IMG/VR virus record: IMGVR_UViG_3300047494_000096
Coordinates: 1 to 24,280 of that record
Source of the DNA: a virus
Direction: 5' to 3' (one strand)
Length of the DNA stretch: 24,280 bases
Shown: positions 6,104-24,280 of the stretch, one piece after another
Layout of the letters: each line of letters starts with the position of its first letter
How positions within the stretch are numbered: position 1 is the first letter of the stretch
The notes under the pieces: generated by a model
Told to the model about the DNA's origin: nothing
Databases searched by the model: none
What the model saw: the letters and a program-made list of their open reading frames with translations, nothing else
Position numbers and translations under genes: made by a program

Positions 6104-6151
6104 TCCTGGGACGGCGCCCCAGCGAAACCAGAAAGGAGTAGGGGTTTGGTC

Positions 6152-6430: not shown

Positions 6431-6440
6431 GATGGCGACA

Positions 6441-6450
6441 GCAACCAAGG
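6441..6450 (+). repeat. GCAACCAAG leader motif, copy 1 (57 nt before SGNH gene)
   Basis: Copy of the start-associated repeat. The first A of AACCAA (6443) is 57 nt upstream of ATG 6500. Downstream in the leader are small hairpins (CCAG/CTGG and GCGG/CCGC) and a GGGGAG ribosome site. This copy has the closing C-G pair but no longer stem. Confidence 0.55.
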
Positions 6451-6499
6451 CGACCCAGAAGACCTGGCGTGCGGATTGACCGCCTGGGGAGCGTTGGCA

Positions 6500-6898
6500 A
6501 TGTCGACAGTACAGATTACGGCACCTGTCGGTCAGGCGCTTTCATTAATTGTTGGCGCGAGCGGTAACCAGTATCAGCCGAGTTCAGCCGGTGTCTATTC
6601 GATCCAGTCCAACGATCTGAAATACTTTTTGGACATCGGTTTCTCTGTTGTTAACGCCACCAACCTGAACACACCGCTGACGAGGCTTAAGCGGTTGGCA
6701 GGTGTGGCACGCATCAATAACTGTCGCGTCAACGCCGTCATGTCGTCCCCGCCGACGATCAGCCAAAGCCAGTCGGCCCCGGCATACAGCAATGGATATC
6801 TGTGGGGGGTACAACCCAAGGTGCGCTCAACTACTACAGCGGCCAGATTGGAACGTATTCCGGGTTCGGGTTCCGAACATTCAATGCAACGACCGTAA
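6500..6898 (+). CDS. SGNH-hydrolase gene, N-terminal fragment before a frameshift
   Basis: ATG 6500 follows GGGGAG by about 9 nt. The first ~55 residues form a small module (GNQYQPSSAGVYSIQSNDLK, then YFLDIGF) that is also found at the start of the protein at 7923. Then comes LKRLAGVARINNCRVNAVMS and SAPAYSNGYLW, after which the frame enters low-complexity sequence (STTTAARLERIPGSGSEHS) and stops. The protein-like sequence continues without a break in the -1 frame from base 6802. The switch point is the G6 run at 6804-6809: one extra G, or a -1 slip, joins YLWG to GTTQGALNYYSG. So this and the next entry are one gene of ~444 aa that is either mutated, mis-sequenced, or frameshifted by programme. 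Confidence 0.65.
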   Translation: MSTVQITAPVGQALSLIVGASGNQYQPSSAGVYSIQSNDLKYFLDIGFSVVNATNLNTPLTRLKRLAGVARINNCRVNAVMSSPPTISQSQSAPAYSNGYLWGVQPKVRSTTTAARLERIPGSGSEHSMQRP

Positions 6899-7833
6899 CG
6901 CCAGGCGCAGGCTTTTCTCCAGGCGCTTGGCGGGTTTCCGCGATAGTCGACTCGGCCAAATTCACCTTCAAGATGTTCGATTTTGGCAGCGGAGATAATT
7001 ATCGCATAATTGTGAATGGCCAGTACGTTAGTACATCTCCGACGGTCATGAGCAGTTCTGGCGTGAACTATCTCACCGTCGATTTTACGTCCGCAGGCGG
7101 GCGGGCCGCGAGACTCGTGACGATCGAGTCCTCGGCGCCGGCTGGATTCTACGGCGTTTACGTCGGCCCGACGGAGGGCGTTTATAAGCCAGCCGGCGAT
7201 ATCGTACGCCTACAGGTTGAGGGCGACAGCTTCGCCTCTGGAGCAGGCGCCACGATCACGCAAAACGGCTTTGTCTACGTGCTTGGGGACTGCCTTGGCA
7301 CACAAGACATATGGTCCGACGGCGTCGGCGGAAGCGGCTATATTGCCAGCGCCGGAAACACTGTGACCACATTCCTACAGCGTGTGCCGGACATCATTGC
7401 TGCCAATCCCGACATCCTGGTGGTGTGCGGTGGCATCAACGATTCGGGCTTCACGCCGCAAGCTGTCCAGGCCGCAGTTTACACATACCTCAAAACGCTT
7501 CGTGCTCAGGCAGCTTTGGCAAAGACCCCGATTTTTATCACCGGTGCGTGGCCTGGGCCGACCGGCCCGAGCGCCGCGATCCTGGCGACCGAAGCTGCGA
7601 TCGGGGCAGCCGTGGCATCAATGGGCGACCCTTACATGTTCTTCATCCCCGTCGCGACCGACCCGAACGGCTCTTGGATAAGCGGGGTTGGCTATTCCGG
7701 TTCTCCGGCCGGCGCCGGTAATTCAGATGTTTATACGAACGGCGCCAATCTGCCCCACACCAATGATGCTGGACATTTTTTCCTTGGAAGCAGGCTGGCT
7801 GACGCAATCATGCGCGACTTGCAGCCCTACTAA
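6802..7833 (+). CDS. SGNH/GDSL-type hydrolase domain (C-terminal part of frameshifted gene)
   Basis: GTG 6802 is only the formal start; there is no ribosome site and the true N-terminus is in the preceding frame. SGNH hydrolases are esterases/lipases/acetylhydrolases; in phage virions they commonly deacetylate surface polysaccharide. Counting from 6802, block I is VEGDSFASG with Ser143. The Gly of block II is in GVGGSGY (~175-180), block III is GGINDSG with Asn213, and block V is NDAGH with Asp322-x-x-His325. All four catalytic blocks are intact. Residues 1-130 are a beta-rich domain (GFGFRTFNATTVTPG, FKMFDFGSGDNYRIIVNG), as in tail or decoration proteins. Gene position in the head region suggests a capsid- or neck-associated enzyme, but a tail location is possible. 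Confidence 0.75.
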   Translation: MGGTTQGALNYYSGQIGTYSGFGFRTFNATTVTPGAGFSPGAWRVSAIVDSAKFTFKMFDFGSGDNYRIIVNGQYVSTSPTVMSSSGVNYLTVDFTSAGGRAARLVTIESSAPAGFYGVYVGPTEGVYKPAGDIVRLQVEGDSFASGAGATITQNGFVYVLGDCLGTQDIWSDGVGGSGYIASAGNTVTTFLQRVPDIIAANPDILVVCGGINDSGFTPQAVQAAVYTYLKTLRAQAALAKTPIFITGAWPGPTGPSAAILATEAAIGAAVASMGDPYMFFIPVATDPNGSWISGVGYSGSPAGAGNSDVYTNGANLPHTNDAGHFFLGSRLADAIMRDLQPY

Positions 7834-7848
7834 AGAAGACAAAGGGCG

Positions 7849-7886
7849 CCGCAACCAAACCTCGGTAGAGCCTCTGCGGGGCGCCT
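7849..7886 (+). repeat. GCAACCAA leader motif, copy 2, within a stem-loop (70 nt before 7923)
   Basis: GCAACCAA at 7851-7858 follows CC and is enclosed by complementary CCGCA (7849-7853) and TGCGG (from about 7880); GGCGCC flanks on both sides could extend the pairing. It lies in the 89-base gap between the SGNH gene and the gene at 7923. An AGGAG ribosome site follows near 7910. Spacing to the ATG is longer (70 nt) than in most copies. Confidence 0.5.
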
Positions 7887-7922
7887 CGGCGCCGGAAACA
7901 GTCTCGACCAGGAGCCACACCG

Positions 7923-8453
7923 ATGACGACCTACCTGTCCATTATGCCGCCGCCCGGTCAGTCGCCGGCATTCTCGGTGGTCGAAGGCATTTCCGGCACC
8001 TCGTACAAACCCGATGCCAACGGCATCTACACCGTGGCGACGCCGGATGCCGACTATCTGATCCGTCAGGGCTGGATCCAGCCGCTGACGCTGAACATAA
8101 TCGGCATGCTGCTCGGCGCGAACATGAACAGCACGGCCGACCAGCTGATCCCGCTCTATGTACCTGCCACCACGCTCTACCGGGTCAACAAGGTGACCGT
8201 GACCAACGCCTCTGTCTCTCTAACCACGGCCGTCGGCGGTCTCTACACAGGTGCCGGCAAGACTGGCTCGGCGTTGGTGGCAAACTCGCAAGTGTATTCG
8301 GCGCTGACCACGGGCCTAAAGGCGGTGGATCTGACGTTGGCGCTCAACCAGCGCGACGTCGCGGGCACGCTGCTGTATCTGTCACTGACAACCGCACAGG
8401 GTGCCGCGGCCACGGCCGACGTTTACGTGTATGGCGACAGGCTTGCGCAGTAA
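7923..8453 (+). CDS. Putative virion (decoration/appendage-type) protein, 176 aa
   Basis: AGGAG ~9 nt before ATG 7923 gives a clear start. The N-terminal ~55 residues (GTSYKPDANGIYTVATPDAD, then YLIRQGW) match the layout of the N-terminus of the SGNH protein: Gly, aromatic, Pro, Gly-[IV]-Tyr, Asp, Leu/Phe-Ile, Gly-aromatic. This suggests a common docking module. The remainder is a beta-rich Thr/Val/Ala domain (LYRVNKVTVTNASVSLTTAV, LTTAQGAAATADVYVYGDRL), as in phage decoration or tail-associated proteins. No catalytic motif. The next elements are hairpins and tRNA genes, so it ends a transcription unit. Exact role unknown. Confidence 0.6.
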   Translation: MTTYLSIMPPPGQSPAFSVVEGISGTSYKPDANGIYTVATPDADYLIRQGWIQPLTLNIIGMLLGANMNSTADQLIPLYVPATTLYRVNKVTVTNASVSLTTAVGGLYTGAGKTGSALVANSQVYSALTTGLKAVDLTLALNQRDVAGTLLYLSLTTAQGAAATADVYVYGDRLAQ

Positions 8454-8466
8454 CGCCGAAGACGCT

Positions 8467-8496
8467 TAAGCCTCCTGCACGCTCGTCGGGGGGCTT
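8467..8496 (+). other. Stem-loop after the gene ending at 8453
   Basis: AAGCC-T-CC pairs with GG-G-GGCTT around a loop of about 12 bases. It precedes the stronger hairpin at 8502. It may help end the upstream transcript; there is no T-run after it. Confidence 0.35.
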
Positions 8497-8501
8497 CAAA
8501 C

Positions 8502-8540
8502 CGCCGTGCCTGGAACAAGATCCAGGCACGGCGAATTGCT
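8502..8540 (+). terminator. Strong 13-bp hairpin, terminator-like, just before the tRNA pair
   Basis: The arms 8502-8514 and 8521-8533 are perfectly complementary (13 bp, GC-rich) around the loop ACAAGA, followed by AATTGCTTTT. The T-run is short and interrupted, so it may be a weak terminator, an RNA 3'-end stabiliser, or a processing signal for the tRNA that begins at 8544. Confidence 0.55.
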
Positions 8541-8543
8541 TTT

Positions 8544-8620
8544 CGCGGGGTAGCTCAGTTCGGTAGAGCACAGGACTCATAATCCTGGGGCCGAGGGTTC
8601 AAATCCTTCTCCCGCAACCA
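8544..8620 (+). tRNA. tRNA-Met(CAU), initiator-like
   Basis: A full 77-nt cloverleaf is visible. The acceptor arms are 8544-8550 and 8610-8616, the D arm is GCTC/GAGC (8553-8569), and the anticodon stem CAGGA/TCCTG has loop CTCATAA (8576-8582, anticodon CAT). The T arm is GAGGG/CCTTC with loop TTCAAAT, the discriminator is A, and CCA is encoded (8618-8620). The first acceptor pair is C8544 x A8616, the C1-A72 mismatch that marks bacterial initiator tRNAs, and the 3' end CCCGCAACCA is that of tRNA-fMet. But the anticodon stem has only two of the three initiator G-C pairs (G-C, G-C, A-U), and the D stem has C11-G24 as in elongators. So it is a hybrid: probably a phage initiator tRNA, possibly an elongator Met or Ile(lysidine) tRNA. 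Confidence 0.88.
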
Positions 8621-8632
8621 AATCAACGTAAC

Positions 8633-8706
8633 GCGGGGCTGCGTGAGTGGCCAACGACCAGCCTTCCAAGCTGAGGAACAGGGTTCGATTCCCTGGCCCC
8701 GCTCCA
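8633..8706 (+). tRNA. tRNA-Gly(UCC)
   Basis: Twelve bases after the first tRNA. The acceptor arms GCGGGGC (8633-8639) and GCCCCGC (8696-8702) pair perfectly. The anticodon stem CCAGC/GCTGA has one outer C-A mismatch and the loop is CTTCCAA (8663-8669, anticodon TCC). The T arm is CAGGG/CCCTG with loop TTCGATT, the discriminator is T (U73, typical of tRNA-Gly) and CCA is encoded at 8704-8706. The D arm is weak (three pairs CGT/ACG with a GG in the loop). Total 74 nt. Confidence 0.85.
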
Positions 8707-8726
8707 AATCGCACCCGGTGGACCTC

Positions 8727-8735
8727 GCAACCAAC
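8727..8735 (+). repeat. GCAACCAA leader motif, copy 3 (55 nt before 8784)
   Basis: Located in the 77-base gap between tRNA-Gly and the gene at 8784; the first A of AACCAA (8729) is 55 nt upstream of the ATG. The base after AACCAA is C, so the closing pair seen in other copies is missing. The rest of the gap 8454-8783 holds only the hairpins and tRNAs listed. Confidence 0.5.
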
Positions 8736-8783
8736 CCAATCGCCTAGTCCGTGCGCACACTTCACGCCCGGGGCCTTTGATCT

Positions 8784-10160
8784 ATGGACGCAGCACTCGT
8801 CGACATCCTGGCGGAGAAAGGCCAGGAAATCACCGGCCAGTATGTGCTGGCTGACCTCGAGGCGCTCGGCAAATGCACCGATGATAGCGTCGTCATGGAG
8901 ACGCTGCAGAAATGGGCGGCCGGCGACGACAGCCTGCGCAAGCGCATGGCCGGCACGATCATCGCCCAGGCGCAGCGCACCGTCGGCAGCCAGACCCATG
9001 CTGCCATCCAGAAACTGAAGTCCAAGAAGCCGCTTGAGTCGACGGATCCAGCTACCATGGCGGCCGCTGCCAAACTCGGCATGCCGGCGAAACCGACCGA
9101 CGAGCGCCAGGCCATGCAGGCCGAGATGGACGCGCACACGCACCGCATGGCGCGCGTAGCCCAGAAGGCGGCGCTACACGGCGCGTCCCTGGGCGCCAAA
9201 ATGGCGGTGGAGAAGATGAACGCCGAGAAGGGAGCGATCAGGGCGGCCGGCGGTTTGGCGAAGGGTGTTGGGCCCGGTTTCTTGAGCGCTGCGGGTCGCG
9301 TGATCACGCATTCGGACGGCACCTTCACACGCCTCAACAGGCACTCGTTCGATAATGCGCCGAAGGCTCCGTGGCTTGGCCGCGCGGCTGGGCCAAAGGG
9401 CGCTCGCATACAGCATGCACCGGCGCCTAAAATTCAGGCCGAGGCAACGCCGCACGATCGCTTGAGCCCGCCCGCAACCAAGCCGGCAGTCGCCAAGCCC
9501 GCTTCCAGATGGGGCAGGAAAGCCAAGTTTGGCGTGGCCGCAGCCGGCGCCGGTGCGGTGGGGCTGCATCAGTATCGACGCAGCCAGGACGGCAAGTTCT
9601 CCGGCTCCGGTGCAGCCATGACCAAAGCTGCGCCCGACGGCGCGCATGTCGGTCTGACACCGCACATGACGATGACGCCAGACTTCCACGGCGGCTCGGA
9701 AACCGGCGGTAAGACCAGCCGTGCCAGCAACGTCCAGGACACCCGCGACAAGCGCCAGGCGCACGCCACCGGCTATCGCGGCACCATGAACCCCACGCCG
9801 CCGATCGTGCGCGGCAATACGCCGGCGCCCGGCATGGTCGACGACATGGAGCACGGCACGATCCATGGGTCGGCAGAGCCCGCGGGCGGCACGAAAATGG
9901 GAACTGCGGCCAGCTTGGCGGGGGTTAAGCGCAGCGCGCTGGTGATGGCGATCGGCGCCATGCGCAGGAAGGCCACGGCGAACCCGATTGCAAAGATGGC
10001 GACCAAGCCGATCAGCCCGTCCAGTGAGCCGATCCCGCGCCAAGTGCGCATGACGCCGGTGGCGGCGAAGGTCCACGAGATGTCCAAGCCGCCGCGCTTT
10101 GCCAGAATGCCAAGCCAAAAGTCCGAGCTGGTCAAGAACGGCGAGAGGGACGGGCTGTGA
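8784..10160 (+). CDS. Uncharacterised head-operon protein, 458 aa
   Basis: I do not recognise this as a known family. Residues 1-70 are a compact helical domain (MDAALVDILAEKGQEITGQY; CTDDSVVMETLQKWAAGDDS). Residues 80-170 are Ala/Met/Lys-rich helix (AEMDAHTHRMARVAQKAALH). After that the protein is basic, Pro/Ala-rich and probably disordered, with the QYRRSQDGKFSGSG motif at ~261-274 that resembles the HPR-xx-GRFA motif of other proteins here. ATG 8784 has only a weak GGGG ribosome site and follows motif copy 3 by 55 nt. The end overlaps the protease start by 4 nt (GTGA). Located directly before the protease in the head operon, it is likely a virion or scaffold-associated protein. The internal GCAACCAAG at 9474 is coding (Ala-Thr-Lys). 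Confidence 0.6.
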   Translation: MDAALVDILAEKGQEITGQYVLADLEALGKCTDDSVVMETLQKWAAGDDSLRKRMAGTIIAQAQRTVGSQTHAAIQKLKSKKPLESTDPATMAAAAKLGMPAKPTDERQAMQAEMDAHTHRMARVAQKAALHGASLGAKMAVEKMNAEKGAIRAAGGLAKGVGPGFLSAAGRVITHSDGTFTRLNRHSFDNAPKAPWLGRAAGPKGARIQHAPAPKIQAEATPHDRLSPPATKPAVAKPASRWGRKAKFGVAAAGAGAVGLHQYRRSQDGKFSGSGAAMTKAAPDGAHVGLTPHMTMTPDFHGGSETGGKTSRASNVQDTRDKRQAHATGYRGTMNPTPPIVRGNTPAPGMVDDMEHGTIHGSAEPAGGTKMGTAASLAGVKRSALVMAIGAMRRKATANPIAKMATKPISPSSEPIPRQVRMTPVAAKVHEMSKPPRFARMPSQKSELVKNGERDGL

Positions 10161-13800: not shown

Positions 13801-15958
13801 CGCCGGCGCGGTCGAGGGCGCCGCCAAGCTCAAGGATTATATCGGCGATCTGGCATCGAAAGATCGCCGCGCCACTGCGCGTAACCCTATCAACCTGAAA
13901 TTCGAGGATCATCCGGATCCGTTCGGCGGTGGTGGATGGCACGCCATCACCGTGCCGGATCCCGCACGCAAGGATGAACGCCTGGTGCTCTGGGGCGAGC
14001 GCACCACAAGCGCCACGTCGCGGCCGGAGCCGATCGCGGCTGGCGCGCGGCTGTCGAGCGTGAAGCAGAAGATCAGCGATCTCGGCAACCGGCCGGCCTT
14101 CGGCGACCAGCAGCAGGCTGCCTCGGTGAAGCCGATCAACCTGCCGCACATCTCCGACGAGGACCGGGCGGCAACGGGCAAGGTGATCGGCGAGCTCTAC
14201 AATGCCAAGCGCATGCAGGCGATCCAGGCGCCCCCGAGCGCCGGGCAGATCATGCTGCGCCACCAGGACGAGCAGAAGGGGCAGGCCGAGGCCGGCAAGG
14301 TCATGGAGGCCATCCGCAAGGTCCATACCGGCCATCCCACCGGCAAAATCTATTTCGATGCGCTGTCGGCGGCAACCAACAGCCGCGAGGGCCGCGTGCT
14401 CCAGGCGCATCAGGTCTACGGGCTGCTCACCGGCTACAAGAAGGGCGGCGATCCGGTCGGCAAAGGCATCTTCGCCAAGAACGAGGGTTTTGCGTCACGC
14501 GACGCCGGCGATGTCGCCAAGGCGCTGACCGGCGAGGTCGGCCGCAGCGAGGTCAGCCCGCGCGATGACCAGCAGAAGGCAGCCTTGACCCGTGCGGTCG
14601 CCATCGTGGCACACGTCAAGGGCCTGAGCGCCGAGCAGACCAAGCCGATCTACGACAAGATCGGCGGCAGCAAATCGGAAGCGCCGGCCGCGGTGATCGG
14701 CCAGACGGATCTAGGCCGCAGCCGCCAGAAAAGCCGCATGGACGACGACGTCACCCAGGGCGGCCGTAGCTGGGACAAGGCCGCGTTGACGAACCTCGCA
14801 CACAAGGCAGCCGTTCGCATCAGCTCGATGCTCGATATGCATGATGAAAACATTGCCTTGCAGGTACGCTCGAACGCGCTCGGTATCGAGATGCTCGCCC
14901 GCCAGGTCAATGCCGTGCATGGTCTCAGCATGAACGAGTCCGTGGAGGCGGTCCAGAACGCCATACGCAGCCTCGCCAAAGGCCAGGGTGACGTGCAGCG
15001 CACGATCATCCGCGACGGCCTGCGTGACCGGGATGCCGAAGCCTTCAGCAACGAGCTCGACCGCCAGGCGCAGGAGATCATCGACCGGCGCATGGCGAAG
15101 CTTGCCGGCGCCGACGATTTCGAGATCCTGGAAAAGGGGTGGGCCGGGGTTGCGTCCGAGGCGCGGGATCGGCTCGGGGAGTGGACGTCCGGCGGCGCTG
15201 CCTCGGCGGCGCGCACCGGAGAAGACGAGGACGCCAAACTCAGCACTGGACAGGTCGCGCTCAAGGAAACTGCTGATGGTGTGGTGGATGCCGCTGCCCG
15301 GGCCAGCTCCAAGCCTGCACCCACCAGCCGTGTCAAAGCACCGACCCCCTGGTATGCACCGTCGCGACTGGCGCCAGAAATCGGCACATTCGTCGCCGGT
15401 GACGCACTCGGGCTGGCCGCCAAAGATCTGCTCGGGCCGGAGGGAAAGCTCGGCGCATTGGCGTTCGAACGCTTGGGCGGGTCGAAATTGGCTGGTTCAA
15501 TAGCCAGAAAGGCCATCAAGGGCACGGCCATCGCCGGTGCCGGGACCGCAGGCAGCATCGCAGGAGGTATTTCTGGTGGCGCTCTGGTCCGGGGAAAAGC
15601 CAACATTCCTGAGGACTCTGCACCCAAACAGCTCGCCAGCTTCGGCGGCAACGTCGTCGGCGGCATCGCGGGTAATTACGCGCAAAAAGCTATTGTAAAG
15701 GCCGGTGCGGGGGCGGCCGCAGACCTAGCCGGCAAGTATCTGGGCGAAGGCGCCGGCGCTTTCGTCGGCAGCGCCGCCGGCCCTGTAGGCACCGTGCTCG
15801 GCGGCGCTCTGGGCTCTCTGATCTTCGGGCACGTCGCCGAAGGCGCTTACGACAAGGTCGCGCCGATCGTGAGCCGCTATTTCGGCGGCTACGACCAGAA
15901 ACACGCGGCGTCGGTGATGGCGCGCTACACGGCGCCGAAGCCGCAGCAGGCGGCATGA
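10808..15958 (+). CDS. Giant Ala/Gly-rich virion protein of unknown function, 1716 aa
   Basis: TTG 10808 follows the protease TAA directly. The N-terminus (FTAEIISDLRGRVIAHNALA) leads to FDPGKHPRSKGGKFAGKN at 69-86; a second motif copy, FDPYRDSKGRFASG, is near residue 412. Hydrophobic Ala/Gly blocks occur at about 125-200, 375-445 and 985-1005. A glycine-zipper-like C-terminus lies at about 1570-1690 (GTAGSIAGGISGGAL, GEGAGAFVGSAAGPVGTVLG). Between about 600 and 900 the protein is long charged helix, probably coiled coil. No enzyme motif is recognised. Size, membrane-active character and position suggest an internal head or ejection (pilot) protein cleaved by the neighbouring protease, but this is inference. 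Its stop overlaps the next ATG (ATGA). Such a gene between protease and scaffold is unusual. Confidence 0.7.
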   Translation: MGQKPNFTAEIISDLRGRVIAHNALAEPDRQTKLQELKKRYIAAYSGPDPHGHALQKIDGFLDGLSKGFDPGKHPRSKGGKFAGKNAPARAPIPVKVELPSSAAEHQELQAENPAYHAITSDVIPDTRHEAEGAALKTGISIALGTAAILSAYRSGPRGLLARALANATGKPTRWAVGAGAGAALYGGEAAGNKAAQIAGRIIGKKIADTDFHTAKAATRAVADAAEWAGRKPGQLAGLAVPLAIRGGVKLAQAPIARLPANATRLQRGLHRAQLAAAKGGVLAGASLAAGGAIDHAWTNSGIADPESIGKTYDHFSYRTIEKLAGDRAFDGEYDRQLAELRKIYGDDEGTLGRILDTDALRKNFPVSAVFAGAKRAINIGAAALAGGAVGAGVGAGVHHVFRARPGQSHGFDPYRDSKGRFASGPGASSAIGAVVAGTAAALGVYAALRGHNTAILRKVIAGRLAHSRRIIDKINSDEGHGPVAKMISGKLQTIAQRVQNDKKLSDQLEEIDRYGASHSAHYKEAIRTEVNQRLAELLVDKEEFAVPAKYAGGYGVTRLTKVRDAIGAMKPGEFKAAISKLTPKEQEQALQLFNGRQGWIDDVDAQLAGHHAAIDKAAADVERARTERVAAATATRDARATQGMVGEKTDEQKAADLAAVGDAEAKEIAASTIEREAIAKHTRLKGGAKIMSPLEPGRRIKPFDTEKAKSDLRTAAEKKHAAAVDREIDHARSAQLQSHVAHHDRLLLARAGLYRGAIGPGAEDVLGPLKSAVGLTQKTAEKSATPALRDALHNGSSAMASFHEAEAKHAAALADHAASMTELKNAKIAAVGKTPKGLTEVQAQQLRDDHANIEDRVRQHAATVADRARELATARSRMHDAAVHIEETAAGAGVRSADGSRFPLAMRAHLAAGFRQISAGPAAAATQFLSNTTAKNFRNYAKKTGQSAKAFGTRMGAGFKGTTAAAFMRDDDVHGRVIDPIKTFRTLSLVGGAVGGIAGAVEGAAKLKDYIGDLASKDRRATARNPINLKFEDHPDPFGGGGWHAITVPDPARKDERLVLWGERTTSATSRPEPIAAGARLSSVKQKISDLGNRPAFGDQQQAASVKPINLPHISDEDRAATGKVIGELYNAKRMQAIQAPPSAGQIMLRHQDEQKGQAEAGKVMEAIRKVHTGHPTGKIYFDALSAATNSREGRVLQAHQVYGLLTGYKKGGDPVGKGIFAKNEGFASRDAGDVAKALTGEVGRSEVSPRDDQQKAALTRAVAIVAHVKGLSAEQTKPIYDKIGGSKSEAPAAVIGQTDLGRSRQKSRMDDDVTQGGRSWDKAALTNLAHKAAVRISSMLDMHDENIALQVRSNALGIEMLARQVNAVHGLSMNESVEAVQNAIRSLAKGQGDVQRTIIRDGLRDRDAEAFSNELDRQAQEIIDRRMAKLAGADDFEILEKGWAGVASEARDRLGEWTSGGAASAARTGEDEDAKLSTGQVALKETADGVVDAAARASSKPAPTSRVKAPTPWYAPSRLAPEIGTFVAGDALGLAAKDLLGPEGKLGALAFERLGGSKLAGSIARKAIKGTAIAGAGTAGSIAGGISGGALVRGKANIPEDSAPKQLASFGGNVVGGIAGNYAQKAIVKAGAGAAADLAGKYLGEGAGAFVGSAAGPVGTVLGGALGSLIFGHVAEGAYDKVAPIVSRYFGGYDQKHAASVMARYTAPKPQQAA

Positions 15959-16071
15959 GCGGCACATTTACCCAGCCGTCGTCGCCCACATCCGGCCTGC
16001 AAAACTACAAGATCGAAGGCAGCGTCAAGAACCTCTATTACGTTCCACGGTTCAATCCGGTCCTCAAGGCC
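15955..16071 (+). other. Partial duplicate of the major capsid N-arm
   Basis: The translated segment GTFTQPSSPTSGLQNYK / IEGSVKNLYYV aligns with capsid residues 32-59, GTFTQPGTATTGLQTYN / LEPAAKNLYPV, with 17 of 28 identical by my count. After that, similarity fades. The capsid's first 31 residues have no counterpart. The segment is followed by an out-of-frame TAG, motif copy 4 and the scaffold start. Confidence 0.7.
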
Positions 16072-17529
16072 CTGAAATCTAGACGGCGCAACCAAGCCGC
16101 CGCGTTTTCCCGGACCAAGTCACTCAGGAAGGGCCTGCCACCTATGTTCGAAACGCTCGAGAAGATGGCGTCGACGCTGACGAGCAGTGTCGAGACCATC
16201 ATCGCCGCAGGCGGCGACCAGCAGGCCCTGGCGGAAACCCAGGCGCAATTCGCGCGCGCCGTGCAAGGTTTTGTCGATGGCGAGCTCGCCAAGGTTGCGC
16301 CCGACGATCTCGAGCCGATGTTCAAGGGCCTTGGCACGGTCAGCCGCACTGCCAGCATTGTCAGCCAGATGGCAAGCTCGGTGCAGAACGCCAAGGACGG
16401 CAAGGAATGGAGCGGCTCCGACAAGGTCAGCGATCCGGCTTCGGAACAGGTTTGCGACATGCTGGACGCGGCATTGCACTGCGCCGAGCTTGCGCTCCGC
16501 TTCGCCGTCAACGAGCATGTCGAAATCGCCGAGCCCGACGAGCTGGACAGCCCCATGGACGGCATGGCTTACATGAAGCTGGCTGATCCCACGGATCCCG
16601 ACAATCGCGAGCTCGATCAGCTGATCAAATCGGCGCTGCCGTCCGACCTGCTGGCCTTCGCCACGGACCCGGCGGAACTCGCCATGGGCATGACCACCTT
16701 CGGCGCCGAAATCCTGGCCAAGACCGGGATACCGGAAAACATTCTCGAAAAGCTGTTTTCGGACGAAGGCCTTGAACTGCTGGAAAAGGCGGCCCCGTTC
16801 GATCCGAACGCGGATCCCAACGCAATGGGCGCCGGCGATCCCAATGCCGACCCTAACGCCGACCCGAGCCTCGACGGTGACGATGGCAGCGGCGATGGCG
16901 ACGATCCCGTCGATGTGCTCGGCCGCATCCTCGCCGCCGGCATGATTCAGCTCGATCTGATCCGCCAGATCATGGAGGGCGGCGACCCAGGCGCGGCGGA
17001 TCCGGGTTCGGCCGATCCCGCCGATCCGAACATCGGCGACGCAACCAACGATCCTGCGGGCGCGGCCAATGTCGGCGCACCCGATCCGGCCGACCCGAAC
17101 GCAACCGCCGGTGGAGCGCCGCCGGCGCCCGCTAAAAAGAAAAATCCGTTCGCCAAGCTGGCGCCTGGTGGGGCTCTCGCCAAGCTCGCGGGTTCAGCCG
17201 AGATCGCAGTCGATCCCGCAACCCTTTCCATTCTGGAAAAAGTTGCCACGAGCAGTGAGGCTTCCGACGCGCGTGTCGCCAGCCTCGCCAGCGCCGTCGA
17301 CAAACTGACGGGGGTTGTCGGCACCATGGCGTCCCAGCTTCAGCCGCCGAAAGGTCCGATCGGGCAAGCCCACCTCGGAACCCTCGAGAAATCAGCCGAC
17401 GGACATGGGCAAGCGCCCAACGACCTCGATCTCGATCAGGAAGCCAACCGACTGGCCAAACTGGCGCCGGAAGATCGCGCATTGGCGCTGACGAAGCTGG
17501 CTCATCGCTCCGGCGGCGCGCTCGTCTGA
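15955..17529 (+). CDS. Acidic scaffold-like protein; frame opens with a capsid N-arm copy; internal start at 16144
   Basis: Coordinates give the longest form (524 aa). ATG 15955 overlaps the giant-gene stop (ATGA). ATG 16144 has a better ribosome site (AGGAAGGG, 10 nt upstream) and motif copy 4 lies 54 nt before it, so the 461-aa form is probably the main scaffold product. That form begins MFETLEKMASTLTSSVETII, is helical and acidic, and contains repeated DPNADPNA / DPADPN units (about 283-305 and 345-390 of the long form). It ends with a helix, NRLAKLAPEDRALALTKLAH. Acidic helical composition, low-complexity middle and position just before the capsid gene are those of scaffolding proteins. 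Residues 3-30 of the long form resemble capsid residues 32-59. Scaffold identity is inferred from context, not from a recognised domain. Confidence 0.65.
   Translation: MSGTFTQPSSPTSGLQNYKIEGSVKNLYYVPRFNPVLKALKSRRRNQAAAFSRTKSLRKGLPPMFETLEKMASTLTSSVETIIAAGGDQQALAETQAQFARAVQGFVDGELAKVAPDDLEPMFKGLGTVSRTASIVSQMASSVQNAKDGKEWSGSDKVSDPASEQVCDMLDAALHCAELALRFAVNEHVEIAEPDELDSPMDGMAYMKLADPTDPDNRELDQLIKSALPSDLLAFATDPAELAMGMTTFGAEILAKTGIPENILEKLFSDEGLELLEKAAPFDPNADPNAMGAGDPNADPNADPSLDGDDGSGDGDDPVDVLGRILAAGMIQLDLIRQIMEGGDPGAADPGSADPADPNIGDATNDPAGAANVGAPDPADPNATAGGAPPAPAKKKNPFAKLAPGGALAKLAGSAEIAVDPATLSILEKVATSSEASDARVASLASAVDKLTGVVGTMASQLQPPKGPIGQAHLGTLEKSADGHGQAPNDLDLDQEANRLAKLAPEDRALALTKLAHRSGGALV
16084..16102 (+). 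repeat. GCAACCAAGC leader motif, copy 4, in a potential stem-loop (54 nt before 16144)
   Basis: GCAACCAAGC is at 16088-16097. Flanking CGGCG (16084-16088) and CGCCG (16098-16102) can pair, with C16097 bulged and C-G closing the AACCAA loop. The element is inside the open long frame but behaves like a leader of ATG 16144. Confidence 0.55.
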
Positions 17530-17537
17530 TCAAATTT

Positions 17538-17630
17538 TGTTGGCCGTGCAACCAAGCCAACAGCTTGGTTCGGTCAACCCGGCGCGGGCGATGCCCGCAG
17601 GACGCTCCCTGACCCAGGCCTGAGCAGCCT
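17538..17630 (+). promoter_or_regulatory. Major capsid leader: motif copy 5 and several hairpins
   Basis: The 161-base gap before the capsid gene holds four possible stems. TGTTGGC (17538-17544) pairs with GCCAACA (17556-17562), leaving AACCAA (17550-17555) in the loop. AACCAAGC (17550-17557) pairs with GCTTGGTT (17563-17570), which excludes the first. GCGGGC/GCCCGC stands at 17584-17598, and CAGGC/GCCTG near 17615-17631. No T-run follows, so simple termination is unlikely. The GAAGG ribosome site is at 17676-17680. Probably a structured leader of the most highly expressed phage gene. Confidence 0.5.
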
Positions 17631-17690
17631 GACCATGGCTCATCACTGCCGTCGAGCCGCGGCCATACTGCTTACGAAGGCGTTTCCGTC

Positions 17691-19232
17691 ATGGAACTCA
17701 ATCCCGGTTCGGATACCGCGGCGTCCATCGCCGCAATCCGCGCGATGCTGGCGCAAGCCGGCGGCACCCTCGAAAAAGCGACCGGCACGTTCACCCAGCC
17801 CGGCACCGCTACGACTGGCCTTCAGACCTACAATCTGGAACCGGCGGCCAAGAACCTGTACCCGGTCTATTCGCCGATCCGCAATCGCACCTCGCGTGTG
17901 AAAGCCACCGGTGGCTTGCAAGCCAACTGGAAGGCCGTGATCAACCCGGATGCCGGGTTGCAGTCGATCGGCGTTTCCGAGGGTAATCGCGGCGCCCTGA
18001 TCCAGGTCCAGACGGCCGATTACTTCGCGGCATTCAAGACCATCGGCCTCGAATCCAGCGTCACCAAGGAAGCCGAGCTGTCGGCCGAGGGTTTCGATGA
18101 TCTGAAAGCCCGCGCGGTCAACACACTGCTCCAGGACCTGATGATGGGCGAAGAGCGCCTCATCCTCGGTGGCAACACCAGCGTGCCACTTGGCCAGACC
18201 CCGCAGCCGACCCTGGTGGCGTCGACCACCGGTGGCACCATCGCGGCATCCACTCTGGTCAGCGTGATCTGCGTGGCGCTGACGATGGACGGCCTGCGCA
18301 CCGCCAGTGTCACCGGCGGCGTCCAAGGCTTGGTCACCCGGACCAATACCGATGGCTCGACCGATCAGTACGGCGGCGGCGCGGCCATGGCTTCGGTCAA
18401 TGCCACTGTCACGACCGGCGGAAGCACCGCAACCAATCTGGTGACGGCGACCGCGGCGGCCGTTCAGGGTGCGGTCGCCTACGCCTGGTATGTCGGTTCG
18501 GTCGTCGGTCAGGAGCGCTGCTACGCGATCACGAACTACTCGGCGGTACAGATCACTGCGTTCCCGACCAACACCAATCCGATGGTGCCGACATCGGTTC
18601 TGACCGCCGACAACAGCGCCTGCTCGCTGTATTTCGACGGCCTGATCACGATGAACGCGAAGACCCAGAACTACAATGGGATCAACGCCAAATGGATCGT
18701 GCCGACCGGAACGCCCTCGGGCGGTGTCGGCGTCACCCTGACCTCCGATGGCCTGGGCGGCATCATCGAATTCGATCAGATGCTGCAGTGGTTCTGGGAC
18801 GTGTTGCGCATGAGCCCGGACCGGATCATCATGAACAGCCAGCAGGCTCTGGACATCCGCAAGAAGATTCTTGGATCGACGAGCGCCCAGACCAGCCGCT
18901 TCCAGTTCGTGATCAACCAGGGCCAGATCGTGGGCGGCGGCATTCCGAAGGGCTACATGAACCCCTTCGCGAACGGCACCGGACCGGCGGAACTGGCTTT
19001 GGAAATCCACCCGTATCTGCCGAACGGGACGATCCTGTTCCTTGCCGACAAGCTGCCATACCCGATGAACAATGTGCCGGAATTGATGCGCATACTGGGC
19101 CGGCAGGACTACTACCAGTACGAGTGGCCGATGCGCTCGCGCAAATACGAGTATGGCGTCTACAGTGACGAAGTGCTGCAGCACTACTTCCCTGTCAGTA
19201 TTGGCGTGATCTCCAATATCGCGCCTTTCTAG
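17691..19232 (+). CDS. Major capsid protein, 513 aa (HK97-fold expected, with inserted Ig-like domain)
   Basis: ATG 17691 has GAAGG 10 nt upstream. The order protease, scaffold, capsid, adaptor and the length fit an HK97-fold capsid. The N-arm (about 1-60) includes TGTFTQPGTATTGLQTYN. Next come FAAFKTIGLESSVTKEAELS, helical NTLLQDLMMGEERLILGGNT, and a late region DQMLQWFWDVLRMSPDRIIM and PNGTILFLADKLPYP. The protein ends with YFPVSIGVISNIAPF. Residues ~235-305 (VQGAVAYAWYVGSVVGQERC) have the pattern of an Ig/fibronectin-like insertion seen in other phage capsids. The first ~30 residues (MELNPGSDTAASIAAIRAML) may be a cleaved or scaffold-interacting delta region. A terminator stands 22 nt after the stop. 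Fold is assigned by context and pattern, not by search. Confidence 0.85.
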   Translation: MELNPGSDTAASIAAIRAMLAQAGGTLEKATGTFTQPGTATTGLQTYNLEPAAKNLYPVYSPIRNRTSRVKATGGLQANWKAVINPDAGLQSIGVSEGNRGALIQVQTADYFAAFKTIGLESSVTKEAELSAEGFDDLKARAVNTLLQDLMMGEERLILGGNTSVPLGQTPQPTLVASTTGGTIAASTLVSVICVALTMDGLRTASVTGGVQGLVTRTNTDGSTDQYGGGAAMASVNATVTTGGSTATNLVTATAAAVQGAVAYAWYVGSVVGQERCYAITNYSAVQITAFPTNTNPMVPTSVLTADNSACSLYFDGLITMNAKTQNYNGINAKWIVPTGTPSGGVGVTLTSDGLGGIIEFDQMLQWFWDVLRMSPDRIIMNSQQALDIRKKILGSTSAQTSRFQFVINQGQIVGGGIPKGYMNPFANGTGPAELALEIHPYLPNGTILFLADKLPYPMNNVPELMRILGRQDYYQYEWPMRSRKYEYGVYSDEVLQHYFPVSIGVISNIAPF

Positions 19233-19253
19233 GTCTGGTTAGCAGATGATGCA

Positions 19254-19291
19254 GGCGGCGGGTTCTCGTGGATCCGCCGCCTTTGTCTTTT
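19254..19291 (+). terminator. Rho-independent terminator after the capsid gene
   Basis: GGCGGCGGGT (19254-19263) pairs with ATCCGCCGCC (19272-19281; one G-U pair) around an 8-base loop, followed by TTTGTCTTTT. It stands 22 nt after the capsid stop and explains why the next gene should start at 19303, not at the ATG 19246 that lies before the hairpin. Confidence 0.75.
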
Positions 19292-19302
19292 CGGGGGCGG
19301 CG

Positions 19303-19713: not shown

Positions 19714-19744
19714 CGGCCCGCGGCACTGGTGACGATCAGGCCGA

Positions 19745-19765
19745 GGGATGCGTCGCTGGCATCCC
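19745..19765. terminator. Hairpin between convergent genes
   Basis: GGGATGC (19745-19751) and GCATCCC (19759-19765) are a perfect 7-bp stem with a 7-base loop, placed in the 53-base gap between the convergent genes ending at 19713 and 19767. There is no clear T-run on either side; it may act as a bidirectional transcript end. Confidence 0.4.
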
Positions 19766-19766
19766 G

Positions 19767-20117: not shown

Positions 20118-20144
20118 CGGCCAACTCCTCCATCCGCTTTTTGC

Positions 20145-20156
20145 GGCAACCAAGCC
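20145..20156 (+). repeat. GCAACCAAGC leader motif, copy 6 (53 nt before 20201)
   Basis: GGC-AACCAA-GCC at 20145-20156 forms a perfect 3-bp stem closing the AACCAA loop. The first A (20148) is 53 nt upstream of ATG 20201. Confidence 0.55.
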
Positions 20157-20183
20157 CCTATACCGACCGGGGACATCGTTCAA
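20157..20183 (-). promoter_or_regulatory. Possible promoter for the secreted-protein gene
   Basis: On the minus strand TTGAAC (20183-20178) and TATAGG (20162-20157) are 15 bases apart, 40 bases before the ATG at 20117. Spacing is short and the -10 is imperfect. It overlaps the leader of the plus-strand gene at 20201. Confidence 0.25.
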
Positions 20184-20200
20184 GCGAAGGTCCTGTCCCC
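20169..20200 (+). promoter_or_regulatory. Hairpin abutting the start codon with the ribosome site in its loop
   Basis: GGGGACA (20169-20175) is perfectly complementary to TGTCCCC (20194-20200), which touches ATG 20201. The GAAGG ribosome site (20186-20190) is in the 18-base loop. The GGGG can instead pair with CCCC at 20155-20158, next to motif copy 6, so two alternative folds exist. Confidence 0.45.
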
Positions 20201-20722
20201 ATGACGATTCTCAAGGCGCCCGCCAATGTCAGCTCGATCGCGACCAGCACGGGTCACGAATTCACCGTCGTGGACGGCTTCATCGACACCGGCACCGCGC
20301 CTCAAAAGGCCATCGACCAGCTGCTGACGATCGGCAAATGCACGATGGCGACGGACGAGGACATCGGCGCCGCCGATGCGAAGACCATTCAAGAGCCGAT
20401 GCTCAATCAAATCAAGAACAATAAAGCGGCCCTCATCACCAGGCTCAAGGAGATGGGCGAGGCCGTCGACGGCCGCAGCTCGCTCGCCGCACTTGCCAAC
20501 CAATACGAAAACGTCACCGCGCGCCAGAAGCAAAGAGAAGCGGTCGCCCAGGCGAAAGCCGCAGACGATGAAGCCAAGGCTAAGGCCGAAGCCGAAGCGC
20601 AGGCCAAGGCCGCCGCCGCAGAAGCTGCCAAGACCGCCGCGGCATCGACGACCCCAGTGCCGCCGCCGGCGGCTCCGGTAACTCCAGTGACGCCACCCGT
20701 CGAAGCCGCCAAAACCGCATAG
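20201..20722 (+). CDS. Hypothetical protein with Ala/Lys/Glu coiled coil and Pro-rich tail, 173 aa
   Basis: ATG 20201 has GAAGG 10 nt upstream within a hairpin loop. Residues 1-60 form a small domain (VSSIATSTGHEFTVVDGFID, AIDQLLTIGKCTMATDEDIG). Residues ~65-105 are helical (KNNKAALITRLKEMGEAVDG), and ~110-148 are a highly charged Ala-rich helix (QREAVAQAKAADDEAKAKAE). The last 25 residues are Pro/Val/Thr-rich (PVPPPAAPVTPVTPPV). The tail resembles C-terminal extensions of small head proteins placed between capsid and adaptor genes. No family is recognised. It could be a head accessory or cementing factor; that is from position only. Confidence 0.65.
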   Translation: MTILKAPANVSSIATSTGHEFTVVDGFIDTGTAPQKAIDQLLTIGKCTMATDEDIGAADAKTIQEPMLNQIKNNKAALITRLKEMGEAVDGRSSLAALANQYENVTARQKQREAVAQAKAADDEAKAKAEAEAQAKAAAAEAAKTAAASTTPVPPPAAPVTPVTPPVEAAKTA

Positions 20723-20731
20723 GCAGTCGAC

Positions 20732-21310
20732 GTGTCCGAATCGCCGCTCGGCAATCTGCTCAACCTGAACGATGTCCAGGGCTGGTTGGCGCTCGACGGC
20801 ACCGAAAACACGTACTGGATATCGGCCGCGGTCGATGCCGCCAGCGACGCGGTGCTGGACTGGCTGCAATGGGATCCGCGTTCCCAGACCGTGACCGATC
20901 TCTATGACGGAACCGGCGGCAACAGCCTGCCCGTCCTCGGCTACCCGATCACGGCGGTCTCGGCCATCAGCTATCTCTACCCGGGCTGCGCGCCGCAGGC
21001 GGACCCCATGACATCGATCAGCTGGTCGCCCAAAGACCCCATGATCTACAATGGGTGCGGATTTCCTTACGGCACCGATAACGTCCAGGTGACCTTCACG
21101 CGCGGCTTTGCCACGCTCCCGAATTCGATCCTGCAGGGCGTCCGCTACACCATCAAATCGATGATCGACGGCTCCGGCGTCGATTTCAACGCCACGGGCG
21201 AGAGCTATCCTGGCGTCATAGCACAGACCTGGCAGCCTGGCGGACCCGCCACGGTTCCGGTCGCGGCGCAGACGCTGATGCGCCGTTTTCAGCGCAAGTT
21301 CATCAGCTGA
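20732..21310 (+). CDS. Head-tail adaptor (connector) protein, gp6-like, 192 aa
   Basis: GTG 20732. Order and sequence pattern fit the HK97 gp6-like adaptor that binds under the portal. An N-terminal helix runs AAVDAASDAVLDWLQWDPRS, followed by the beta segment TDLYDGTGGNSLPVLGYPIT and AVSAISYLYPG (in this family: y-G-x-G-x-x-x-L-x-L-x-x-P[IL]). Then FTRGFATLPNSILQGVRYTI shows the helix that ends with an Arg-rich C-terminus (TLMRRFQRKFIS). Its TGA shares a base with the next ATG. Nothing unusual is seen in it. Confidence 0.75.
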   Translation: MSESPLGNLLNLNDVQGWLALDGTENTYWISAAVDAASDAVLDWLQWDPRSQTVTDLYDGTGGNSLPVLGYPITAVSAISYLYPGCAPQADPMTSISWSPKDPMIYNGCGFPYGTDNVQVTFTRGFATLPNSILQGVRYTIKSMIDGSGVDFNATGESYPGVIAQTWQPGGPATVPVAAQTLMRRFQRKFIS

Positions 21311-21933
21311 TGGTCGGCCGCCCTATCGCGCGGCTGGTCGCCGATGTCTACAGGCGCCGCTTTCCGCTGATCACTTTGCGGACGATGTCGGACCAGACCG
21401 GGCCGAACCGCGCGCCCAACCCCCCGATCATGGTCAACCCGGTGCTGCACGCCGCACTCGCGCCCGGGGCCACCACCATGGCCATCGATTGCACGATCGC
21501 GGCCGGCTCGATCAACGTCGGCGATATCATCGAGTTCCCGCCGCGGCGCTTTACGGTCCAGGCTCCCGTCACGAGCCGGGCCGTCGGAACCACACCGCCA
21601 GGCTTCGATAACATCGCGTTTTTTCCGCCCGTCATTGATGCCGTCGCCGCCGGCACCGCGGTCACCATGATCTATGCCGGTGACCACCCGATCAGGGCCA
21701 ATGTCACGCCCTACAAGGATTATCTCGTCGACGGCAGCATCATCCAGGCCGAGGACGTCATGGTGATGATTCCGGCCTACGACCTCAGCATCCCGGGGCC
21801 AATGGCGCGGCCCGACGTCAAGACCCAGCGGCTGGTGATCAATGGACCGACCGATGTCCGCAAGATCCTTTCGGTCGATCCGGTCATGGGAAGCCAGGGC
21901 GAAATCGTCGAATACAAGATCCAGGCCCGCTGA
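21310..21933 (+). CDS. Head closure (stopper) protein, 207 aa, with inserted beta domain
   Basis: ATG 21310 overlaps the previous stop by one base. The C-terminal half has the head-closure pattern: DGSIIQAEDVMVMIPAYDLS, then PDVKTQRLVINGPTDVRKIL and DPVMGSQGEIVEYKIQAR. This protein plugs the connector after packaging. Between the short N-terminal helix (RPIARLVADVYRRRFPLITL) and that core is an extra ~75-residue segment (AGSINVGDIIEFPPRRFTVQ) that looks like a small SH3/OB-type beta domain. The usual protein is shorter (about 110-130 aa), so the insertion is notable. Coupled to the next small gene by TGATG. Confidence 0.65.
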   Translation: MVGRPIARLVADVYRRRFPLITLRTMSDQTGPNRAPNPPIMVNPVLHAALAPGATTMAIDCTIAAGSINVGDIIEFPPRRFTVQAPVTSRAVGTTPPGFDNIAFFPPVIDAVAAGTAVTMIYAGDHPIRANVTPYKDYLVDGSIIQAEDVMVMIPAYDLSIPGPMARPDVKTQRLVINGPTDVRKILSVDPVMGSQGEIVEYKIQAR

Positions 21934-22082
21934 TGCCGTTCGACGGCGGCGATTTCTTCGGGCGCGAACCCGAACCGCAGCCTGAGCTCTTTCGGTTCGC
22001 CGAGGCCTGGCTATGGGCGCTGCTTTTCGCTGAAATCTGCTGCGTTCTGCTCATCGCCATGTTCCGGGCAGCAGCCCGATGA
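21933..22082 (+). CDS. Small single-span membrane protein, 49 aa
   Basis: This short gene is coupled on both sides: ATG 21933 overlaps the TGA of the head-closure gene, and its TGA (22080-22082) overlaps the ATG of the next gene (22079). The product begins MPFDGGDFFGREPEPQPELF and continues with a strongly hydrophobic helix (AWLWALLFAEICCVLLIAMF), then a basic end (RAAAR). The acidic outside/basic inside charge pattern fits one transmembrane span. Not recognised; a membrane protein inside the connector operon is unexpected. Confidence 0.6.
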   Translation: MPFDGGDFFGREPEPQPELFRFAEAWLWALLFAEICCVLLIAMFRAAAR

Positions 22083-22546
22083 GTGGCACCGGCGGCGTAG
22101 ATGCGGCATCGATCGACCCGTTCAACGTGTCGGTAAAAAAATGGATCGCACTGGCGGGATCGCGGGCGGACGAAGCATTCCTGGCGACCTGTCTCGATGC
22201 CGTCGACAGGGTCAAGCAGCTGACGCCGGTGAAGACCGGCTATTTGCGGGCCAACTGGACCGCCGTACGAGAGGGCGATCAGATGCCTGTCGCAGGATCC
22301 GAGACGCCGGCGGAAACAGCGCTCGCCGGCCTCAAATGGGGCGAGACCGTCTACATCGTGAACCCCGTGGTCTACGCGAGGCGCATCGAATACGGCTTCG
22401 TCGGCGAGGACAGCGCCGGCCGGCACTACAACCAGGCAGGGCGCGGCATGCTGCAACAGACCGTCCAGGAACTCCCACAGATAGCCGAGCAGGCGGTGCT
22501 GCGGATCATCTCCGGAGGACCCGCGGATACAGGCGGCGCCCAATGA
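22079..22546 (+). CDS. HK97 gp10-like head-tail/tail completion protein, 155 aa
   Basis: Contains the family landmark LTPVKTGYLRANWTAVREG (T-P-V-x-T-G-x-L-R-x-N-W), followed by VYIVNPVVYARRIEYGF and a C-terminal helix GMLQQTVQELPQIAEQAVL. These proteins sit at the head-tail joint or tail-tube end and act in tail completion. The start ATG 22079 overlaps the membrane-protein stop (ATGA), and the end overlaps the next ATG (22543) likewise. Length and order between head-closure and tail-terminator genes are normal. Confidence 0.8.
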   Translation: MSGTGGVDAASIDPFNVSVKKWIALAGSRADEAFLATCLDAVDRVKQLTPVKTGYLRANWTAVREGDQMPVAGSETPAETALAGLKWGETVYIVNPVVYARRIEYGFVGEDSAGRHYNQAGRGMLQQTVQELPQIAEQAVLRIISGGPADTGGAQ

Positions 22547-22962
22547 GCGGATCGGTCGCCGAGCAGGACTTCGTGAGCGCGTTCGACCTGGCGCTGAACG
22601 CCATTACGGGCCTCGGCACGATCACAGTCGAAGGCGATCCGTTCGAGCCGTCAGAGGGTGTGCCCTATCTGTATGGGCGCATGGTGAGCCTCGTGCGCAC
22701 TCCGATTGGTTATGGCGCAAACGCGGTGGTCCAATACAGCGGAACCTATCAGGTGAACTGCAACTGCCCGATGGAGCAGGGCCGCGCCTATGCCGGGAAC
22801 ATGGCACGCGCCATAACCGCAGCGCTCAACCGCGGTTCGGTCGTGACAACGACAAATGGCGTGACCGTCAGCATCATAAATTCATCGGCCGCGCCCGCGA
22901 TCGATAATGCCGACTGGATAACTGTCCCGGTCTCCATCTCCTGGTTCTGCTCGGTGCCCTGA
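22543..22962 (+). CDS. Tail terminator-like protein (DUF4128 type), 139 aa
   Basis: ATG 22543 overlaps the upstream TGA (ATGA). The sequence begins MSGSVAEQDFVSAFDLALNA and continues with PFEPSEGVPYLYGRMVSLVR and YSGTYQVNCNCPMEQGRAYA. It ends with the strand WITVPVSISWFC. This alternation (helix, P-x-x-G-x-x-Y-L, then a beta sheet with a middle helix) is that of tail terminators, which cap the growing tail tube. Position directly before the tail tube gene agrees. A longer overlapping frame starting at 22141 is a shadow in its upstream part. Confidence 0.75.
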   Translation: MSGSVAEQDFVSAFDLALNAITGLGTITVEGDPFEPSEGVPYLYGRMVSLVRTPIGYGANAVVQYSGTYQVNCNCPMEQGRAYAGNMARAITAALNRGSVVTTTNGVTVSIINSSAAPAIDNADWITVPVSISWFCSVP

Positions 22963-22976
22963 GGCTCGATAGCAGG

Positions 22977-23022
22977 CGCAACCAAGCGATGCGCACCAGT
23001 CGGCCGGACACAACTGACCGGC
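22977..23022 (+). repeat. GCAACCAAGC leader motif, copy 7, plus hairpin (53 nt before tail tube gene)
   Basis: CGC-AACCAA-GCG at 22977-22988 closes the loop with 3 bp; the first A (22980) is 53 nt before ATG 23033. A second stem GCCGG/CCGGC (23003-23007 and 23018-23022) lies between it and the start codon. Confidence 0.55.
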
Positions 23023-23032
23023 GGCCAAAGCA

Positions 23033-24253
23033 ATGTCTCTTTACGCGACTGGCGTAAATAAAACCGTGGCGATCGCCACGGAGACCACGTTCGGTATCGC
23101 CAGTACAGGCACCGGCCAATATCTGCGCCGCATCAGCTGCCAGTTGAATGTGGCTGCACCCCTGATCCCCAGCCAGGAGATCCTGAGGTCCCAGCAGGTG
23201 GTCGATGCGCGGCAGGGACCGCGGCAGGTCAATGGCACGCTGAGCGGTCAGCTCAGCCCGACATCCTACTACATGCTGTTCGACGCCATGCTGCGCGGCA
23301 GTTTTGCGGCCGGCGGCCAAACAGGGACGCTTGCGGACCTGACGGCCACGCAGACCGACGGTGGCATGGAAGTGCAGATTCAAAGTCCGAGTTCGAATTT
23401 TATCAGTGATGGATTCAACATCGGAGATGTTGTCAAATTTACGACTTTGACCGGAACTTACGCGGCGGACAACGGCGTAAATCTCCCGATCATCGGGTTG
23501 TCGGCAACGAAGATCGTGGCGCCCACTCAGCCCGGTTTTGTCAATTTTCCAGCCGTCCAGACGGGCAAGATCGTCACGAAAGGCTATGTGCTTCAGGCAC
23601 CGTTGACGGGCCAGGTGGTTCCGAGTTTCTCGATCGAGGAATACGAGTCGGATATCGGCGTTTCGCGTCTGTCGCTCGGTTGCGAAGTCAGTCAGATGCA
23701 GATCCAGATGCCGGCACGCGGCTTCTGCACGTTTTCCGCGACGATCCTGGGTCAGAACCAGGTCGTTTCCAACGCCCAGGTCTATACGACGCCGACGGCG
23801 GCCACCACGACGACCAGCCTGACCATGAATGGCGGACTGGTGTTCTACAACAACGGCACGCCTCTCGGCTATATCACGAGCGCCACCTTGAGCATTTCGA
23901 GCACCGTACAGGCCGATCCAGTCATCGGCAGCCAGCTGGTTCCGGCAATCTTCATGGGCACCCTCAGCGTGACCGGAAGCTTTACGGCGCTGGACACGCC
24001 AGACACCATGACGACGGATTTCCTCAGCGAAAACGAGGTGTCGCTGCAGTTCTTTCTGACGACCAACCCGACGACGTCGGCAGATTTCATCAGCATCGTG
24101 CTACCTCGAGTGAAGCTCTCGGCCGCGAACTACACCGATAGCGACAGGGCGATCAGCCGCAGCTTTAGCTTCCAGGCGCTGCAGAACACCGACATGGTCA
24201 ATGCACGGGCGACCACGATCGCAATTCAGGACAGCCTGCAGACCAGCCCATAG
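23033..24253 (+). CDS. Tail tube (major tail) protein, 406 aa
   Basis: The protein matches the Phage_tube_2-type tail tube pattern. The start is TVAIATETTFGIASTGTGQY, then LRRISCQLNVAAPLIPSQEI and a segment with RQGPRQVNGTLSGQLSPTSY. A duplicated beta-rich core follows (EVQIQSPSSNFISDGFNIGD; MNGGLVFYNNGTPLGYITSA; IFMGTLSVTGSFTALDTPDT). The end VKLSAANYTDSDRAISRSFS and FQALQ is the usual final strand. It polymerises in rings below the tail terminator to form the tube. Presence of this and of the terminator points to a long-tailed (siphovirus-like) virion; no sheath gene is visible, but the window ends here. The ribosome site is weak (GGCGGCC); the leader carries motif copy 7. Confidence 0.8.
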   Translation: MSLYATGVNKTVAIATETTFGIASTGTGQYLRRISCQLNVAAPLIPSQEILRSQQVVDARQGPRQVNGTLSGQLSPTSYYMLFDAMLRGSFAAGGQTGTLADLTATQTDGGMEVQIQSPSSNFISDGFNIGDVVKFTTLTGTYAADNGVNLPIIGLSATKIVAPTQPGFVNFPAVQTGKIVTKGYVLQAPLTGQVVPSFSIEEYESDIGVSRLSLGCEVSQMQIQMPARGFCTFSATILGQNQVVSNAQVYTTPTAATTTTSLTMNGGLVFYNNGTPLGYITSATLSISSTVQADPVIGSQLVPAIFMGTLSVTGSFTALDTPDTMTTDFLSENEVSLQFFLTTNPTTSADFISIVLPRVKLSAANYTDSDRAISRSFSFQALQNTDMVNARATTIAIQDSLQTSP

Positions 24254-24264
24254 GCTTTTGACGG

Positions 24265-24275
24265 CGCAACCAGCG
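24265..24275 (+). repeat. GCAACCAGC leader motif, copy 8 (gene outside window)
   Basis: CGC-AACCA-GCG after the tail tube stop, preceded by TTTTGACGG. The window ends 5 bases later. If the spacing rule holds, a start codon is expected near 24320. Confidence 0.4.
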
Positions 24276-24280
24276 GGATC

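Follow-up and report, generated by a model that had tools for sequence, protein, structure and literature searches.

Genes and Repeat Copies at the Locus

The window, a 24,280-base stretch of viral DNA, carries a late structural module with scaffold-like, capsid and tail-tube-like genes, through which the short word GCAACCAA recurs (Table 1). All contigs considered here, the window and its relatives alike, are fragments with their early regions mostly missing, and gene starts were called from sequence. The SGNH/GDSL-like gene is split over two frames (6476-6898 and 6802-7833), reflecting either a frameshift or an assembly error. A DUF6527 gene (19303-19713) and a minus-strand gene with a signal-peptide-like start (20117-19770) separate gene 20201 from the capsid gene; an insert of this kind is absent from L169 (G005). 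A 1716-aa structural-module protein (10808-15958), with counterparts of 1708-1752 aa in relatives, is seen in this clade only, and no isolate phages were matched with this protein or with gene 7923.

Table 1 Positions of element copies, genes and hairpins in the window
Feature	Position	Strand	Core or detail	Relatives with the element before the ortholog, or family
Leader copy in a true gap, before SGNH-like gene	6433..6450	+	core GCAACCAAGG, 6441-6450; T/G at -7/-5 present	
Leader copy in a true gap, before gene 7923	7843..7860	+	core 7851-7860	G002 (12518)
Leader copy in a true gap, before gene 8784	8719..8736	+	core 8727-8736; after tRNA-Gly	G002, G004, G005 (3/3)
Copy inside ORF 15955-17529	16080..16097	+	core 16088-16097; 54 nt before internal ATG 16144	G002, G004, G005, G006 (4/4 holding the gene)
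Leader copy in a true gap, before major capsid gene	17540..17557	+	core 17548-17557; 8-bp inverted repeat AACCAAGC-caaca-GCTTGGTT directly 3'	G002, G006
Leader copy in a true gap, before gene 20201	20138..20155	+	core 20146-20155	G004, G005, G006 (3/3)
Leader copy in a true gap, before tail-tube gene 23033	22970..22987	+	core 22978-22987	G003, G006
Variant (partial) copy after tail-tube stop	24258..24275	+	GCAACCAGCG; next gene beyond the window	
Scaffold-like ORF	15955..17529	+	capsid-N-arm-like extension 15955-16143; internal start ATG 16144	
Major capsid protein gene	17691..19232	+		PHROG 13692, capsid relatives
Tail-tube-like gene	23033..24253	+		phrog_290
Terminator-like hairpin	19253..19282	+	after capsid gene	
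Terminator-like hairpin	8502..8533	+	upstream of two tRNA genes	
Word made by 3' end of tRNA-Met, not the element	8614..8621	+	GCAACCAA	
In-gene copy, probably not the element	9474..9481	+	likewise 14372, 17041 and 18429; all four read GCA-ACC-AAx	

Across the whole window, the word has 12 + strand copies and no - strand copy, against 0.81 copies expected on both strands together, and 12 copies are reached in none of 100 shuffles. These counts bear out the strand-specific repeat described in an earlier note on this DNA, and a 13th, variant copy, GCAACCAG, is indeed present at 24266. The exact copies fall into several classes: six lie in true gaps, one in the scaffold ORF, four in other genes and one in a tRNA. 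The earlier note had counted seven exact copies and the variant in gaps; six and the variant do lie there, and the remaining copy, at 16088, falls inside ORF 15955-17529. Six of the eight true gaps share the word, whereas the most widely shared 8-mer reaches at most three gaps in 1000 shuffles. Because the copies concentrate in gaps, a Chi-like or genome-wide orientation word is an unlikely identity for GCAACCAA. The gap between the capsid and DUF6527 genes (19233-19302) holds a terminator-like hairpin and no copy. Two seeming gaps without a copy, 2314-2464 and 21934-22078, are occupied by small ORFs with stops overlapping starts, which supports the proposal that genes overlapping their upstream neighbour carry none. 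Within genes, five copies (16088 counted) compare with 0.66 expected under synonymous shuffling.

Distances of 57, 70, 55, 54, 141, 53 and 53 nt had been quoted from the repeat to the window's start codons and are correct for those starts; the fixed offset of about 54 nt drawn from them is not supported, the window having 53-57 nt at five sites and otherwise 70 and 141. In the window and relatives taken together, spacing is mostly 39-69 nt, with 97-141 nt at the capsid gene.

A Second Spelling in the Closest Relatives

Capsid alignments gave about 230 relatives, nearly all of which lack exact GCAACCAA. Among the roughly 150-155 examined first, no gap enrichment of the exact word is seen apart from L008, and no other strand-specific word occupies at least four gaps in any one of about 155 relatives, bar low-complexity or both-strand repeats. 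As separate observations on these capsid relatives, TACTCAGTA is over-represented on both strands of the Chloroflexi contigs L161, L137, L136, L140, L157 and L159, and GCTTGGCT occurs about 23 times on one strand of the betaproteobacterial contig L122.

The closest contigs are G002 (IMG/VR 3300047462_000332), G003 (3300047462_000070, probably the same phage as G002, cut inside the capsid gene), G004 (3300047494_000064), G005 (3300042090_001979) and G006 with its near-copy G007. In place of the window's T-N-G-N4-NGCAACCAAGC, five contigs, representing some four related phages, carry T-N-G-N4-GGGGACCAAGC. The form GGGGACCA(A/G) was first spotted, post hoc, in the L008 and L169 gaps, and G002, G004 and G006 proved to have it as well. 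It occurs 19 times on the + strand and not at all on the - strand of the closest contigs (131 kb; 1.2 expected). Alignment of the window and relatives' copies on ACCA reveals a T at -7 and a G at -5 in common (13/17 and 12/17 of the relatives' copies, respectively), two bases that were already conspicuous in an analysis of the window copies alone. Within the core, CA replaces GG at two positions in every window leader copy, and the in-between spellings GGGAACCAAG and GGCGACCAAG are present in G005 and G006. The probable homology of the GG and CA spellings rests on ACCA, the T/G pair and orthologous placement. Both T and G accompany six of the eight window leader copies (16088 counted) versus one of the five others, a separation of leader from in-gene copies that is suggestive only, since Fisher p = 0.09.

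An element matrix at a score of at least 15 finds 25 plus-strand and no minus-strand sites in the clade (155 kb, counting the window and the training sites), and 17 and 3, respectively, in 3.4 Mb of other relatives, where none scores 19 or more. When one relative at a time is left out of the matrix, the leader sites of the held-out relative are still among the top matches. With the window held out, the CA change keeps its own leader sites from ranking among them. Hits in L172 and L220 at a permissive matrix cutoff represent chance or terminator sequence.

Placement Before Orthologous Genes

BLAST of the ORFs downstream of the relatives' sites places most of their copies ahead of orthologs of the genes marked in the window (Table 1). 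G002 has a further copy ahead of the portal gene, and in G003 the gene that comes after the post-capsid copy has no ortholog in the window. A terminator-like hairpin immediately precedes the copy that follows the capsid region in G003, G004, G005 and G006. Some 120 nt ahead of the tail tube, two GGGGACCA sites (in G004 and G005) are embedded in the preceding gene, possibly a coding coincidence.

The scaffold ORF starts by an ATGA overlap and has a conserved N-terminal extension, and the internal ATG at 16144, ahead of which the element recurs in every relative holding the gene, is conserved too. The word is read as R-G-D-Q, R-R-D-Q or R-N-Q in four phages and, in another frame, as R-R-G-P-S-N in G006, which argues for conservation of the DNA word and not of the peptide. 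The internal start may yield a separately expressed product. In its own right, the N-terminus of this ORF resembles the N-terminal segment of the capsid protein itself, TFxQP(S/T)SxTxGLQxYxLE..xNL, in five phages (window 15955-16143 and orthologs in G002, G004, G005 and G006).

Copies set at orthologous positions in five contigs of some four diverged relatives, none of them on the minus strand, strengthen the earlier proposal that the repeat marks late-gene starts in a strand-specific way. Conservation in relatives, set beforehand as a test of that proposal, is found in the orthologous gaps of the closest contigs under the other spelling; the exact spelling is not conserved in most relatives. 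These data also bear on whether the word is regulatory at all, or instead a boundary sequence aiding module exchange or a codon-driven recurring word. Many coding-driven 8-mers in relatives reach similar whole-contig significance, and five of the 12 window copies lie in coding or tRNA sequence and are not leader copies. Such an origin is nevertheless largely refuted, and we consider it highly improbable, given how far gap sharing exceeds the shuffle maximum and given the presence of the same element, changed in a co-ordinated way, at the relatives' orthologous starts.

A Candidate Late Promoter or Activator Site

The element is repeated, strand-biased, placed at orthologous starts, changed co-ordinately between phages and conserved at the nucleotide level. 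We infer from sequence that it acts in transcription, with a reader and a nearby transcript start. At roughly even confidence, we favour a clade-specific, cis-acting late start signal, most likely a DNA promoter or activator site. A transcription factor or polymerase, encoded by phage or host, would bind the consensus T-N-G-N4-G(GG or CA)ACCA(A/G)(G/C) in one direction, its first G being less fixed in the window, and the mRNA would start near or just 3' of the element to give a leader of a few tens of nucleotides. The element would thereby open separately initiated structural genes, the internal start of the scaffold ORF included. Post-capsid copies 3' of terminator-like hairpins, together with the internal scaffold copy, fit re-initiation and thus favour a single-element promoter or activator. 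No second conserved block is present within 70 nt upstream or 40 nt downstream of the sites, which makes a two-box promoter unlikely. Sigma-70 -35/-10 pairs at 16-18 nt spacing have four consensus matches in 6000-24280, a chance level, and none coincides with a leader copy. Counting against a promoter are the in-gene copies above the synonymous-shuffle expectation and the Fisher value for the T-G context.

Action in RNA, as a processing site, stabiliser or translational operator of the 5' leader, with or without a hairpin, has also been weighed. The element always lies 5' of a start codon, mostly by 39-69 nt, and leader folding on average beats that of shuffles, at a mean z of -1.26 versus -0.18 in controls, with strong hairpins in several leaders of G002, G004 and G005. 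Hairpins are, however, weak or absent in the window leaders, neither the sequence nor the loop of the hairpin is conserved, and distances to the start codon differ. Since leaders outdo shuffled sequence in folding in several relatives and not in the window, the hairpin is not part of the element. At the leader copies, no Rfam family exceeds its gathering score, the two tRNAs being the sole matches. An RNA element of this kind appears unlikely.

For a DNA promoter or activator site, the replacement of GG by CA in every leader copy of the window lineage is what would be expected of a site and reader that co-evolve. In a more specific version, the element would belong to a novel class of late promoters with a single element, recognised by a factor that the phage encodes, with a GG-to-CA specificity switch across all leader copies in one lineage; this is possible but doubtful. 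A PF00940 (single-subunit RNA polymerase, as in T7) search gave zero matches, as did its control, the records being fragments. G002 encodes two GcrA-domain proteins in the late module (L242 14216-15433; G002 21000-21194). GcrA is an alphaproteobacterial cell-cycle transcription regulator, and these genes are only a lead as candidate readers. The element points to a phage-specific late-gene switch with no earlier description. For uncultured phages it would provide a concrete late-gene regulatory code that can be tested, and the co-ordinated way in which this code has changed among relatives offers a chance to watch reader and sites evolve together.

Comparison with Known Systems

Promoters of T7-type polymerases and the single-element promoters of T4 gp55 are phage-specific late promoters. 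The element resembles both in having one contiguous element per transcription unit, with lineage-specific specificity bases common to all copies, and differs from both in being GC-rich, with only about 10-12 conserved positions. No description of it was found in the open-access literature, and among the open-access matches listed for GGGGACCAAG, none concerns phages by its title and abstract.

Cluster A mycobacteriophage stoperators are asymmetric 13-bp sites bound by the immunity repressor, with a specificity that depends on the phage (PMC9283540, PMC6550527). The element shares their asymmetry, their location in short gaps and their orientation along transcription, neither spelling having a minus-strand copy in the analysed module. 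A stoperator-type site, at which a prophage repressor would halt elongation, would also fit the phage-specific site variants known from cluster A phages (PMC9283540, PMC6550527) and the excess of in-gene copies. It is nonetheless rather improbable: the sites keep a preferred distance before start codons, that of the internal start included, and these incomplete contigs show neither a repressor nor lysogeny genes. Stoperators are defined by the immunity repressor, which blocks elongation from them.

The cluster K start-associated sequences, SAS and ESAS, are short non-palindromic repeats located 3-7 bp from the start codon, with a Shine-Dalgarno core, at non-structural genes only, and the ESAS consensus varies between subclusters of cluster K mycobacteriophages (PMC3203893). 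Like the SAS (PMC3203893), the element is short, non-palindromic and set in one orientation before gene starts. Unlike them (PMC3203893), it lies about 40-70 nt upstream, without a Shine-Dalgarno core, and it precedes structural genes (portal, scaffold, capsid and tail tube). In its distance to the start, as the earlier note had held, and in the half of the genome that it marks, the element is therefore distinct from the ribosome-site repeats of cluster K mycobacteriophages.
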